Positions 17,063-21,474 of a stretch of DNA of 21,474 nt are shown here, piece by piece. Under the pieces are notes generated by a model, which worked only from the letters and a program-made list of their open reading frames with translations, did no database searches and was not told the DNA's origin. Position numbers and translations under genes: made by a program. How positions within the stretch are numbered: position 1 is the stretch's first letter; each line of letters opens with the position of its first letter. The stretch is from a virus, in IMG/VR virus record IMGVR_UViG_3300027714_000153, positions 1 through 21,474 of that record. The stretch is one strand, 5' to 3'.

Positions 17063-17115
17063 AAAAATATTTCGATATATTTATAGATAGACATATTTAA
17101 CACAAGGACAAAATT
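17063..17115 (+). promoter_or_regulatory. 53-bp intergenic spacer with AT hairpin and Shine-Dalgarno
   Basis: This is the longest non-coding gap in the window. It contains an imperfect inverted repeat at 17063-17082 whose arms are all A/T around a TTCG loop (4 bp stem, one mismatch, then 3 bp). UUCG-capped hairpins occur between T4 genes, but this one is weak. Further on, AAGGA at 17104-17108 precedes the ATG at 17116 by seven bases. A break between two transcription or processing units is plausible here; I see no convincing plus-strand late-promoter match (TATAAATA). Confidence 0.3.
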
Positions 17116-17784
17116 ATGGGAATTTTAGATAACGATACCGTCATAGTAGACGCCATCTTAACCAAGTTGGGAAGACAGAAATTAGCAAACGGACAACCTT
17201 TAGGAATATCACAATACGCTTTTGGTGATACTGGTGTAGATTACACATTATATAACGCTGGCCATCCAAGTGGTTCAAGTAATTACGGAAGTGCTATCAC
17301 TTCTCTTCCAATGTTGGAAGCGGTACCTGATGATAATGTATTTTTAAGATTTAGGCTTTACGGAGAAGGTGAAAGAAATGTACAAAACTTTTCTTTTATA
17401 ACTGCTACAAGTGGTACTTCTGTAACAATATCTAAGGTTGCTGGTGAAACAGAAAGTACACCTGTTACAATAGTCCCAAGAGTTTTTCCAACTGTATCGG
17501 GAGCACAATACAATTATAAAATTTTAGATATGAGAGGGTTAACATTAGAGGGCGTAAATGCTTCGAATGTAAACATATCTGGTGAATTTGGTGCAAATAA
17601 ATTACCACCATTTGACCATCCAGATCCAGTTATAGCAAATATTACTGGTATTAGTGATTTAATTATTAATGCTCAACCACAACAAATTACTTCACAAAGA
17701 TCAGTTGGAGTGGAAATATCAAGAGATGGTGCTGCTTCAGCATTTGTAACCTTAACAATTGAAGCTAACAACACAACAGCATAG
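17116..17784 (+). CDS. Predicted phage structural protein (MGILDN.T..VDAILTK type)
   Basis: This 222-residue protein has an N-terminus (DTVIVDAILTKLGRQKLANG, then YAFGDTGVDYTLYNAGHP) that I recognise as recurrent in virion gene clusters of marine T4-like phages, where it is annotated only as a structural protein. After residue 60 the chain is beta-rich with alternating hydrophobics (FLRFRLYGEG, VTISKVAGE, and a late VGVEISRDGAASAFVTLTIE). The last segment could form an Ig-like strand set. There is no signal peptide or Cys. AAGGA at 17104-17108 supports the start. It is the first gene after the 53-bp spacer and is followed by two genes sharing a C-terminal module, so the three may build one appendage. 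Confidence 0.7.
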   Translation: MGILDNDTVIVDAILTKLGRQKLANGQPLGISQYAFGDTGVDYTLYNAGHPSGSSNYGSAITSLPMLEAVPDDNVFLRFRLYGEGERNVQNFSFITATSGTSVTISKVAGETESTPVTIVPRVFPTVSGAQYNYKILDMRGLTLEGVNASNVNISGEFGANKLPPFDHPDPVIANITGISDLIINAQPQQITSQRSVGVEISRDGAASAFVTLTIEANNTTA

Positions 17785-18877: not shown

Positions 18878-18889
18878 TGTCATGGGATG
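18875..18889 (+). other. Stop/start junction with three ATGs in three frames
   Basis: The junction carries ATG at 18877 (overlapping the previous stop), 18882 and 18887, each five bases apart and each in a different frame. The first reads MSWDV and then meets TAA. Only the third opens the 271-codon gene. No Shine-Dalgarno precedes any of them. The first ATG has the TAATG overlap used by other genes in this window, which hints that it was the original start before a small indel. Confidence 0.6.
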
Positions 18890-19702
18890 TTTAAGAAATT
18901 TACAACCGAAAACCAAAATACCTATCAGTATAAGGCACATAAGAAATTTACTTTAAGCCAAGCTGATTTAACAAGATATGAGTTTATTAAAGACTCAAGT
19001 AATGAGGTATCTAAAAGTTATTACGATTTTGCTCGTATAAATTTTTATCTTAGTGGTTCTCAAGATGAAACATATCTAAACGAATCATTTAACATAGGTA
19101 ATGACGGCTCCGGTAGAAATATATTCCTAAACAAGTTTTATGATAATGGCTCAATTGTTTTTATTCCACAAAATAAATTTGATGAAGAAATAAGACGAGG
19201 TAGTTTTCTTTTAGTAGATAATGCAACGGGAGCAATCATTGTTGATGATAGTGATGGAAATCTTTTTTCTAAAAATGCTACTTTTTCACAATCCATATTC
19301 CCCTTATCTTCACAAGACAATTATGTTGGAAATATTTTTTACAATGTAGGAGCCTTTGCTATTACAGAAACTGCTTCTTTTAACGGTTCAAATGATTATA
19401 CCGATGTGACTAGTGGTAACTTTACGGTTCAATATCAAGGAACAACACAAATAAATACTTATGAATGGAGTTGTGACTCACAACCAAATGAATTAAATAA
19501 CACAACTAATCCTACGGTGTTTAATTCCAATGGATTAGGTCAATTAAAAGATAATTTGACAGGTAGTAATTATCCAACTTATATAACAGAAGTTGGATTG
19601 TATGACGACCAAAATAGTTTAATAGGTTATGCTAAGTTATCAAAGCCAATACCAAAAAGTCAGCAACTGCCGATGAAGTTTTTACTAAGAATGGATTATT
19701 AA
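18887..19702 (+). CDS. Predicted virion appendage protein sharing C-terminal EVGLYD module
   Basis: This 271-residue protein opens with a basic segment (FKKFTTENQNTYQYKAHKKF) and is beta-rich, with a strand-turn pattern through the middle (GSIVFIPQNKF, RRGSFLLVDNATGAIIVDD). Residues 196-271 align with the C-terminus of the preceding protein: a Cys (C196), ELNNTTNPT, YITEVGLYDDQNSL and KLSKPI. The two genes are therefore paralogous at least in this part. ATG 18887 is the only start in this frame after the stop at 18875, but it lacks a Shine-Dalgarno and lies ten bases past the TAATG overlap, so the N-terminus may have been reset by an indel. Probably a second fibre or adaptor subunit made with its neighbour. 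Confidence 0.65.
   Translation: MFKKFTTENQNTYQYKAHKKFTLSQADLTRYEFIKDSSNEVSKSYYDFARINFYLSGSQDETYLNESFNIGNDGSGRNIFLNKFYDNGSIVFIPQNKFDEEIRRGSFLLVDNATGAIIVDDSDGNLFSKNATFSQSIFPLSSQDNYVGNIFYNVGAFAITETASFNGSNDYTDVTSGNFTVQYQGTTQINTYEWSCDSQPNELNNTTNPTVFNSNGLGQLKDNLTGSNYPTYITEVGLYDDQNSLIGYAKLSKPIPKSQQLPMKFLLRMDY
19472..19699 (+). repeat. C-terminal EVGLYD module, copy 2
   Basis: This encodes residues 196-271 of the second appendage protein. The YITEVGLYDDQNSL core differs from copy 1 by conservative changes only, while the flanking parts are diverged. Confidence 0.75.
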
Positions 19703-19728
19703 AACAATACTTATATAGGAGAAATATT

Positions 19729-20022
19729 ATGAATAGCCCAATAGCAAAATTTGTTAACTGGCAAGTATCAACTGGTCAGTTAGATATATGGACATCATAC
19801 CACCTAGCAGCTGGAATCTTTATTGCAAAGATAGCAGAATGGTTAGGACAAACCGATTTTTGGTGTGTGATGTGGGTAGTGATTATAGGTGTAGCATGGG
19901 AAATATTTGAGTACTTTGTAGAAGGTACAGAAGAAACTTATGGTACAAAAAAGAAGTGGGCTTACAATACAGGTGCTGATTTACTTGTAGAGATAGGTGC
20001 TGCTGCTTGGATAATGATATAG
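19729..20022 (+). CDS. Small multi-spanning membrane protein
   Basis: This 97-residue protein has two or three hydrophobic segments: about 22-40 (SYHLAAGIFIAKIAEWL), 44-64 (FWCVMWVVIIGVAWEIFEYF) and 83-97 (ADLLVEIGAAAWIMI). Polar residues sit within or at the edges of these spans: H25, E37, E58, E61, D84 and E88. That H ... W-E-x-F-E ... N-x-x-A-D pattern recalls VanZ/DUF2238-like membrane proteins, but the chain is shorter and I cannot assign it. A holin is possible from size and topology, although embedded acids are unusual for holins and no endolysin lies nearby. The start has AGGAGA at 19717-19722. The stop overlaps the next gene's Shine-Dalgarno, so it is expressed with the secreted protein that follows. 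Confidence 0.7.
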   Translation: MNSPIAKFVNWQVSTGQLDIWTSYHLAAGIFIAKIAEWLGQTDFWCVMWVVIIGVAWEIFEYFVEGTEETYGTKKKWAYNTGADLLVEIGAAAWIMI

Positions 20023-20032
20023 GAGAAAGCAG

Positions 20033-21325
20033 ATGTTAAAAAAACTTATAATAGGTTTATTATTAACCTCATCTTTGTTTAGCCAAGAGTTTTTTACTAA
20101 CTTTTTTAAGTATTCAACTGCTTATGCAAGTTTTAGTTTAAATGCTCCTCGCTATCAAGACGATAGGTTTGCTATTGTTGGGGGTTTATCTACTGGTGAT
20201 TTAATTGTAGAAAGAACTGAAAGAGAATTAAAACCAGATTTTCAAAAATCTTTTGGTATAAGAAAAATTGGTAGATTTCAATACGAACCAAAACGTGGTG
20301 TCAAGTCTGCTGGAAAGGGTGGTGTTTGGTATGATGGTTCTGAACAATCAGCTAATGAAAATGCTACATTTGGACCTGTAAAGGGTTGGGAGTATTTGAT
20401 TAAATTTTCAGAAGGTAGACAATGGGGTGATGACTATCTCAATCAAGAATATTGGTTAAGATATATTGGAAAATTTGTAATGGCTAAAGTAGGTTGGACA
20501 GAACTTGGTTTAGAAGATATTAATTATGGACAAGGTGATATTAGAATCCACCTCACACCTGAAGCATTAGGAAATAAATTTCATCTATCTCTTGGATTTA
20601 AACACAGACAACATCCAGTATATGGATTTGATGCTGCTATCTTAGATACAACTTGGTATAGAGGACAATGGTGGGATTTTGCAGAAGATGCTTTTGGTGT
20701 TGATGATAACCGATGGGTTGATGCTAGTATGATTGACGAAGATGGTAACTTTATACAAGGTCAAAATGAACTATTAGAATACATCAATGGTGAGTGGGTG
20801 CCAATTGAAGGTGGTGGTCCTTTTTGGAATGAAGGTGGAGAATATTGGGGACATGATTGGTTATGGAGAGGTGCCAACGGAGAACTATTTGCTTATACCG
20901 ATAGAGAGTTTTTTATATATCACTTTCCAGGTATGTTAGAAGAATATATCGGTGGTGTTAAAAAAGATATTGGATATCAAAGTGAGACATCATTAGTATT
21001 GGGTATGGATTTTTATCATTATGCTGAAAACTGGTGGTTACACACTTGGGGTAATTGGTTGCCGGTACATTATGGTCACACAAAACACTCTTATCACAAT
21101 GCGTCACTTTATCAAAATCACATAGAAGAAGGTAAAGAACCATATGATTTTGAATATGTAGAAAAGGGATGGGCTGATTGGAATGATTACGATATGGGTG
21201 CTATCTTTGGTGTAAAGTTAAAAGATAATTTAGGTGTATTTGCTGAAGGTAGATATTTGTTCTATTGGGAAAGACCAGCATACGATATCAAACTAGGTGT
21301 TAACTATCAATTTATGGGATTTTAA
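20033..21325 (+). CDS. Secreted, Trp-rich probable outer-membrane beta-barrel protein
   Basis: This 430-residue protein has a clear Sec signal peptide: MLKK, a hydrophobic core of Leu/Ile, then SLFS before Q18. The mature part is rich in Trp, Tyr and Gly and has alternating strand patterns (YWLRYIGKFVMAKVGWTELGL, FHLSLGFKHRQHPVYGF). It ends in a typical outer-membrane closing strand with terminal Phe (AYDIKLGVNYQFMGF). A central loop region is unusually Trp/Gly-rich (GGPFWNEGGEYWGHDWLWRG) and another contains WWLHTWGNWLPVHYGH. The start has AGGAGA at 20021-20026. A tailed phage rarely needs such a protein in the virion, so insertion into the host outer membrane is more likely, for receptor masking, superinfection exclusion, nutrient uptake or lysis. 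No known family was recognised. Confidence 0.7.
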   Translation: MLKKLIIGLLLTSSLFSQEFFTNFFKYSTAYASFSLNAPRYQDDRFAIVGGLSTGDLIVERTERELKPDFQKSFGIRKIGRFQYEPKRGVKSAGKGGVWYDGSEQSANENATFGPVKGWEYLIKFSEGRQWGDDYLNQEYWLRYIGKFVMAKVGWTELGLEDINYGQGDIRIHLTPEALGNKFHLSLGFKHRQHPVYGFDAAILDTTWYRGQWWDFAEDAFGVDDNRWVDASMIDEDGNFIQGQNELLEYINGEWVPIEGGGPFWNEGGEYWGHDWLWRGANGELFAYTDREFFIYHFPGMLEEYIGGVKKDIGYQSETSLVLGMDFYHYAENWWLHTWGNWLPVHYGHTKHSYHNASLYQNHIEEGKEPYDFEYVEKGWADWNDYDMGAIFGVKLKDNLGVFAEGRYLFYWERPAYDIKLGVNYQFMGF

Positions 21326-21326
21326 A

Positions 21327-21474
21327 ATGAAGAAAATACTTTTACTTTTATTATTATCGTTTGGTTGTGAAGATACTATAGTAACTGAACAGAAACAAGA
21401 GCTAATTCAGATGTGGGTTAATGGTGACATTATACCTGTCTATGATTACTATGAGAGTATTACTACCTATGGTG
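21327..21474 (+). CDS. Predicted lipoprotein (3' truncated by window end)
   Basis: The frame stays open to the last base, giving 49 residues. It begins MKKI followed by six Leu and SFGC at 11-14: a short lipoprotein signal with a relaxed lipobox (Ser at -3, Phe at -2, Gly at -1, Cys14 as the acylated residue). The mature start is CEDTIVTEQKQELIQ followed by MWVNGDIIPVYDYYES. It begins one base after the outer-membrane-like gene, so the two are surely co-translated. A residue other than Asp after Cys (Glu here) does not fix its membrane location. It may be a partner of the beta-barrel protein, or an Rz1-like spanin, but spanin lipoproteins are usually short and Pro-rich and this one shows no such bias so far. 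Confidence 0.7.
   Translation, partial: MKKILLLLLLSFGCEDTIVTEQKQELIQMWVNGDIIPVYDYYESITTYG

Follow-up and report, generated by a model that had tools for sequence, protein, structure and literature searches.

The described systems closest to the locus reported here are phage envelope and lysis-locus proteins. Phage lambda encodes the Lom/Bor conversion proteins, with an outer-membrane barrel gene behind the tail-fibre gene (lom after J) and a lipoprotein gene, and phage T5 carries llp, a gene for a receptor-masking lipoprotein, close to its receptor-binding genes. Two-component spanins, such as lambda Rz/Rz1, pair a protein with an N-terminal transmembrane (TM) segment, a Pro-rich linker and a periplasmic coiled coil with a small, Pro-rich lipoprotein, and their genes lie near those of the holin and endolysin. 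The genes described below belong to an envelope-directed, probably late-expressed, phage-specific module that is tied to lysis genes, a characterization that is well supported. In kind it appears to fall among the envelope and lysis-locus proteins just mentioned; what would make it categorically new is its mechanism, for which a proposal is given.

The window is the whole stretch of DNA analysed, 21,474 nucleotides of IMG/VR virus record IMGVR_UViG_3300027714_000153 (positions 1 to 21,474). Its upstream genes include baseplate wedge homologues, and the phage is therefore probably T4-like. At the end of the window, directly behind virion genes, are three reading frames that an earlier note on this DNA had singled out as a tightly packed set directed to the host envelope. 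The features, by position and strand, are:

17076..17085, + strand: TATATTTATA, a candidate late promoter motif; the virion gene at 17116 lies 30 nt downstream
18887..19702, + strand: tail-fibre-like gene, directly upstream of the 97-aa protein gene; context, outside the module
19717..19722, + strand: AGGAGA ribosome-binding site of the 97-aa protein gene
19729..20022, + strand: gene for a membrane protein of 97 aa in which H, E, D and W residues are invariant; an optional neighbour of B, not core
20021..20026, + strand: ribosome-binding site (AGGAGA) for B, sharing bases with the stop of the 97-aa protein gene
20033..21325, + strand: gene for protein B (430 aa), around which the conserved module is centred; signal peptide and a predicted outer-membrane beta-barrel of 12-14 strands
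21327..21474, + strand: start of the lipoprotein (LP) gene, with ATG at 21327 and 49 codons before the contig end cuts the frame

The reading frames, their coordinates and their close packing were confirmed, with gaps of 26, 10 and 1 nt before the 97-aa protein, B and LP genes, respectively. Homologues were found for all three (more than 80 for B at 47-83% identity, 33 for the 97-aa protein and a cluster of 60 genes for LP), so that the frames are not due to chance. The strong AGGAGA sites attributed to the whole set stand before its first two genes, but there is none at the LP start. Most virion genes upstream in the window have weaker sites than these, and a GGAGAAA core upstream of B is strongly conserved among relatives. 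Description of the 97-aa protein as multi-spanning is plausible, but a hydropathy scan at moderate threshold detected one segment only.

A scan of IMG/VR for B yielded 88 relatives, 80 of which were kept, and gene order was read after clustering all frames of these loci. Downstream of B, in the 48 loci with at least 2.5 kb of sequence on that side, a predicted inner-membrane coiled-coil protein (CC) is encoded in all 48, a secreted protein of thioredoxin fold (TX) in 47, and LP in 37, being absent from 11. In 17 of 79 loci the 97-aa protein gene is one of the three genes before B; other loci have it elsewhere, and it is also present in contigs of unrelated phages, amid different small membrane proteins. 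The earlier note had taken the three genes at the window's end as the unit, and had named beforehand their linkage in related phages, as opposed to homologues scattered independently, as the test of that view. It is the 97-aa protein gene that scatters, and LP, CC and TX that are the stable partners of B. The natural unit is B followed by LP, CC and TX; two genes of the trio belong to these four, and the 97-aa protein gene is optional. Judging from its relatives, the window phage would have its own CC and TX genes beyond the contig end.

Two identities considered for the 97-aa protein were rejected: heliorhodopsin (17.5-20.7 bits, below the cut-off of 26.7, and the protein has only a third of the length) and a relative of a DUF2279-like cluster, which comparison of profiles did not bear out. 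Some loci have, close to the module, a gene for an 88-aa membrane protein whose DUF2279 match is below threshold (L017:10955-11218; cluster 23).

Protein B has a signal-peptide-like N-terminus (MLKKLIIGLLLTSSLFSQ) and a C-terminal aromatic closing strand (...VNYQFMGF), and its initial reading as a signal-peptide protein with an outer-membrane closing strand agrees with both an AlphaFold2 model and a fold search. The model, from 49 aligned relatives (pLDDT 67, pTM 0.59), has about 14 barrel strands and a long insertion at residues 195-315. Searches with Foldseek and VIA-align returned outer-membrane barrels of many unrelated families, the best being EstA (Z 16.5, 204 residues, 3.4 A). Small outer-membrane barrels and autotransporter domains (EstA, NalP, KdgM, NanC, OMPLA) are like B in overall barrel fold (Z 12-16.5) but are 5-12% identical to it, a match to barrels in general that is silent on function. 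The results support B as an outer-membrane barrel and nothing more specific, in a model of moderate confidence and uncertain strand number. A TonB-dependent receptor (Plug plus 22 strands) was rejected as an identity for B, which has no Plug match and at most 14 strands in the model. When strands are counted back from the C-terminus, which is expected to be periplasmic, the long insertion is predicted to be extracellular.

No relative of B was found in PHROGs or, at an E value of 1, in Pfam (Ail_Lom and Plug included), and sequence comparison with the PDB gave nothing credible. For the 97-aa protein the same two collections yielded a sub-threshold match at most. Neither B, the 97-aa protein nor a full-length LP relative has a match among the 50,697 phage records of INPHARED. 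A search of the open-access literature found no description of the module. The suggestion of an envelope-directed cassette at the end of a virion cluster is borne out; it is absent from these databases and conserved in related phages. The Lom/Bor-type conversion proteins share with it an outer-membrane barrel gene behind a tail-fibre gene and a lipoprotein gene; B differs from them in lacking an Ail/Lom Pfam match, in having 12-14 predicted strands instead of 8, and in being tied to CC and TX.

The module extends well beyond the window's clade. A second clade came to light by profile search, which matched a 359-aa homologue of B on a contig that had been binned into a Flavobacteriales MAG. That contig, also present in IMG/VR, belongs to a phage. 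Its gene order is an Rz-like candidate, a small TM protein, a 994-aa protein sorted by the type IX secretion system (T9SS), B, CC, TX and an amidase endolysin. Homology between the window's module and the second clade is evident for B (E 2e-43), the CC core (4e-13) and TX (1e-8), with conservation of B between clades concentrated in residues 81-117 and the last strands. B-CC-TX is shared by two clades of phages whose hosts belong to different phyla. A third phage, the second Flavobacteriales match, has the genes in another neighbourhood, where the genes for an M15 endolysin (Peptidase_M15_3, phrog_894), B, CC and TX touch, in that order. A protein of about 1000 aa with a T9SS sorting domain is encoded near B in all 48 well-covered Bacteroidota-type loci (L184:11204-14185, - strand; cluster 1 in L185-L264), and the domain fits a Bacteroidota host for the second clade. 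This phage-encoded protein seems to be directed to the surface of the host.

Altogether, B occurs in more than 560 marine viral contigs, two scans of the second clade having given at least 541 and at least 565 relatives. As far as sampled, it is a phage family. A scan of GTDB contigs with two peptide patterns found no B, nor was a homologue found in 245 Marinimicrobia genomes, a set that holds no positive control. Two of 395 Flavobacteriales genomes match, both through phage contigs, and the one match in 395 Bacteroidota genomes is the first of these same two contigs. A widespread, phage-specific outer-membrane barrel with conserved partners, absent from the reference collections, represents a large blank in knowledge of the phages of two abundant marine groups.

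The host of the window's clade is probably Marinimicrobia (SAR406), for which we know of no described phage isolate. The evidence comes, indirectly, from one phage, a 120-kb relative (contig G003) with the following genes:

L120:5270-8056, - strand: TonB-dependent receptor (Plug and CarbopepD_reg_2), contig G003, T4-like phage
L121:496-885, - strand: TonB C-terminal protein, a separate gene, contig G003

Full-length homologues of this receptor are mostly 55-66% identical to it and nearly all from Marinimicrobia. Receptor genes 72-74% identical to the phage one, in MAG contigs labelled Flavobacteriales (L122) and Euryarchaeota (L167), were set aside as host evidence: they stand beside phage-like genes, and the contigs are probably mis-binned phages. 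Viruses were noted earlier in Marinimicrobia genome data (PMC4533152).

The receptor and TonB genes of this relative also bear on the idea that barrel and lipoprotein nourish the infected cell as a transporter in its outer membrane; a marine megaphage carries a SusC-like receptor (PMC9723777). B, however, has no plug domain and, unlike the TonB receptor, no cellular homologue in the sampled genomes; there is no obvious place in a transporter for CC or for a redox-dead TX, nor does feeding the cell sit well with the linkage to lysis genes. We consider such an uptake function improbable.

LP is about 180-200 aa long in full-length relatives. Its assignment as a lipoprotein holds, with a lipobox-like LSFGC-ED in the window and, in 36 full-length relatives, an invariant lipobox Cys and +3 Asp. 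Most LP sequences read C-E-D-x-x after the lipobox and are acidic there. We know of no surface lipoprotein export motif in Marinimicrobia. In Capnocytophaga, the surface export signal is K-(D/E)2 or Q-A-(D/E)2 following the lipobox Cys (PMC5080379); LP departs from this published Bacteroidetes motif despite its like charge. A model of a full-length relative predicts a folded beta domain (pLDDT 86), for which fold search gave no match above Z 8; the best was LpqH (7.6), and a weak likeness to BT2262 (Z 5.0) counts in favour of the uptake reading. LP is like T5 Llp in being encoded near receptor-binding genes, but its length is about 190 aa and its evolution tracks that of B, CC and TX rather than that of the fibres.

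On inspection, CC sequences of both clades appear to combine a single N-terminal TM segment with a linker that contains Pro and a predicted coiled coil; they have no match to spanin PHROGs. Several TX members reach Pfam Thioredoxin, but CxxC is present in none of 98 distinct TX proteins, which therefore lack the redox motif of an active thioredoxin. In Mantel tests, B, CC and TX are correlated in their pairwise distances at r about 0.59, and LP with B at 0.51.

Several verified lysis families are encoded near B: an Amidase_2 endolysin, an M15 endolysin, endolysin phrog_33083, holin phrog_3427 and a Phage_holin_4_1 member. The amidase beside TX in the Flavobacteriales-MAG phage combines PG_binding_1 and Amidase_2. 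Because loci extracted around B would be biased, whole contigs were searched. Of 16 cases of holin phrog_3427, 12 lie no farther than 5 kb from B where 1.6 were expected, and the Amidase_2 endolysin is within 1 kb in four of four (0.3 expected within 5 kb); the nominal probabilities, 6e-10 and 3e-5, assume an independence that related phages violate. The remaining four phrog_3427 holins are 66-90 kb from B, and one of the 20 cases (G006) is from the window's clade. In that clade, where 34 loci extend 5 kb downstream, the module is followed by phrog_3427 (1.5e-25) in 16; holin-type genes are found in about half of the loci, and no endolysin was found near the module. Of the 48 Bacteroidota-type loci with good coverage, 19 encode an endolysin close to B, belonging to one of two families. 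When holins and holin-like genes are counted as well, the number rises to 40; the commonest holin-like cluster is putative. Linkage alone is not proof of lysis, as lysis and surface-conversion genes tend to share late regions. Of the roles that the earlier note had listed (superinfection exclusion, receptor masking, envelope remodelling or a new lysis route), the lysis-related one nonetheless gains most support from this linkage.

We tentatively propose, as the favoured reading, with a fair though less than even prospect of being correct, that B, LP, CC and TX are a late-expressed outer-membrane arm of lysis or egress that lies outside the known spanin families. B would insert into the outer membrane, and CC, anchored in the inner membrane, would span the wall by its Pro-rich linker and coiled coil in the manner of an i-spanin, with TX as a periplasmic adaptor. 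Once holin and endolysin had removed the inner-membrane and wall barriers, CC and B would open or destabilise the outer membrane. Homology, gene order, coevolution of the four proteins, their near absence from the cell genomes sampled, lysis-gene linkage and the shared upstream motif come from computation; late timing, protein topology, physical contact among B, CC, TX and LP, and lytic action are what we infer here. The likeness to two-component spanins would lie in the TM segment, Pro-rich linker and predicted periplasmic coiled coil that CC appears by inspection to have and, in the second clade, in the position of the genes near holin and endolysin. The outer-membrane partner would, however, be a 350-430 aa barrel rather than a small Pro-rich lipoprotein, with a protein of thioredoxin fold added. 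The module is not filed as a spanin because two defining features are missing, a spanin-family match and the small Pro-rich lipoprotein, LP being about 190 aa with a folded domain. It is a further and rather unlikely step that a phage barrel, an inner-membrane coiled-coil protein and a redox-dead thioredoxin adaptor constitute a new outer-membrane lysis mechanism, taking the place of the spanin in phages, T4-like and others, that infect Bacteroidota and Marinimicrobia. A weak Rz-like spanin candidate in a Bacteroidota-type phage (phrog_739, 6e-5) would make B-CC-TX redundant as a spanin. If correct, the lysis reading would explain how these phages cross the outer membrane.

Late remodelling of the cell surface is a serious rival, somewhat less probable. 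B and its partners, with the acidic-start LP or the T9SS-sorted protein, would change the exterior of the cell as it dies, preventing re-adsorption of progeny to debris or the entry of other phages. The predicted large extracellular segment of B would suit this role, as would the C-E-D charge of LP, which resembles the Bacteroidetes surface export signal without its exact motif (PMC5080379), and the location of B after fibre-like genes in the window's clade, as lom follows J. The constant presence of the T9SS protein in the Bacteroidota-type loci and the second copies of B are better suited by a surface function than by lysis. Such copies occur in tandem in one locus (L011:7968-10557), the second being 47% identical to the window protein, and as partial copies at contig ends in G003 and G012 (G012:C1:1-2250). 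However, the large loop of B is about as conserved within the window's clade as the strands (0.72 versus 0.71-0.83, with residues 233-262 an exception), unlike surfaces in an arms race; loop 349-378 is variable within the clade. Distances of B and fibres correlate at r 0.24-0.26 before conditioning, but with CC, TX and the virion gene as covariates the partial r with the adjacent fibre is -0.09 for B and -0.07 for LP. Recurrent linkage to endolysins of three families also speaks against remodelling. Receptor masking tied to tail fibres, one of the roles suggested earlier, was rejected on this negative Mantel test, covariation lending it no support. Were surface remodelling nevertheless the function, it would be a widespread late surface modification; whether by lysis or by remodelling, the module may offer viruses a previously undescribed means of handling the outer membrane.

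Timing of the module was approached through upstream motifs. ATATTTAT occurs in the 120 nt before 52% of B genes and before 74% of genes in the virion family represented in the window at 17116, against 3% expected, frequencies in which related loci are counted repeatedly. Genes for CC, TX, holins and pilin-like proteins have it upstream in no case or hardly any. In phages of the second clade, 28-32% of endolysin and holin-like genes are preceded by it, but only 4% of B genes. The T4 late promoter TATAAATA near gene starts was not informative. From its placement, ATATTTAT may be a late promoter, with B leading a late operon in a large part of the window's clade, and the module would be expressed late. 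In the window itself TATATTTATA stands before 17116 and no such motif before B, because of which B of this phage would be read through from upstream. The shared motif and the position after fibre genes would also be expected of structural virion parts made beside the tail fibres. The signal peptides, lipobox and barrel fold, however, direct the products to the host envelope, and B is away from virion genes in many second-clade contigs; a virion component is the least credible of the readings considered.

CC of the window's clade has an extra N-terminal domain that, by sequence, looks MshEN-like (the GspE/MshE N-terminal domain). Together with pilin-like genes downstream of the module in 20 loci, some with N_methyl, this could point to interference with a host pilus or secretion system. 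The domain has no match in Pfam, however, Bacteroidota-type CC is without it, and the pilin-like genes occur in part of the clade only, which leaves interference of this kind very unlikely. The type IV pilin-like genes follow the module singly or up to four in tandem (L121:2057-3171, - strand; cluster 3 in L012, L022, L058 and L075). Also downstream of TX, in about 22 loci (cluster 12), is a phage membrane protein with matches to cNMP_binding and POPDC1-3 (2.5e-15 and 8e-15; L027:10237-10887).
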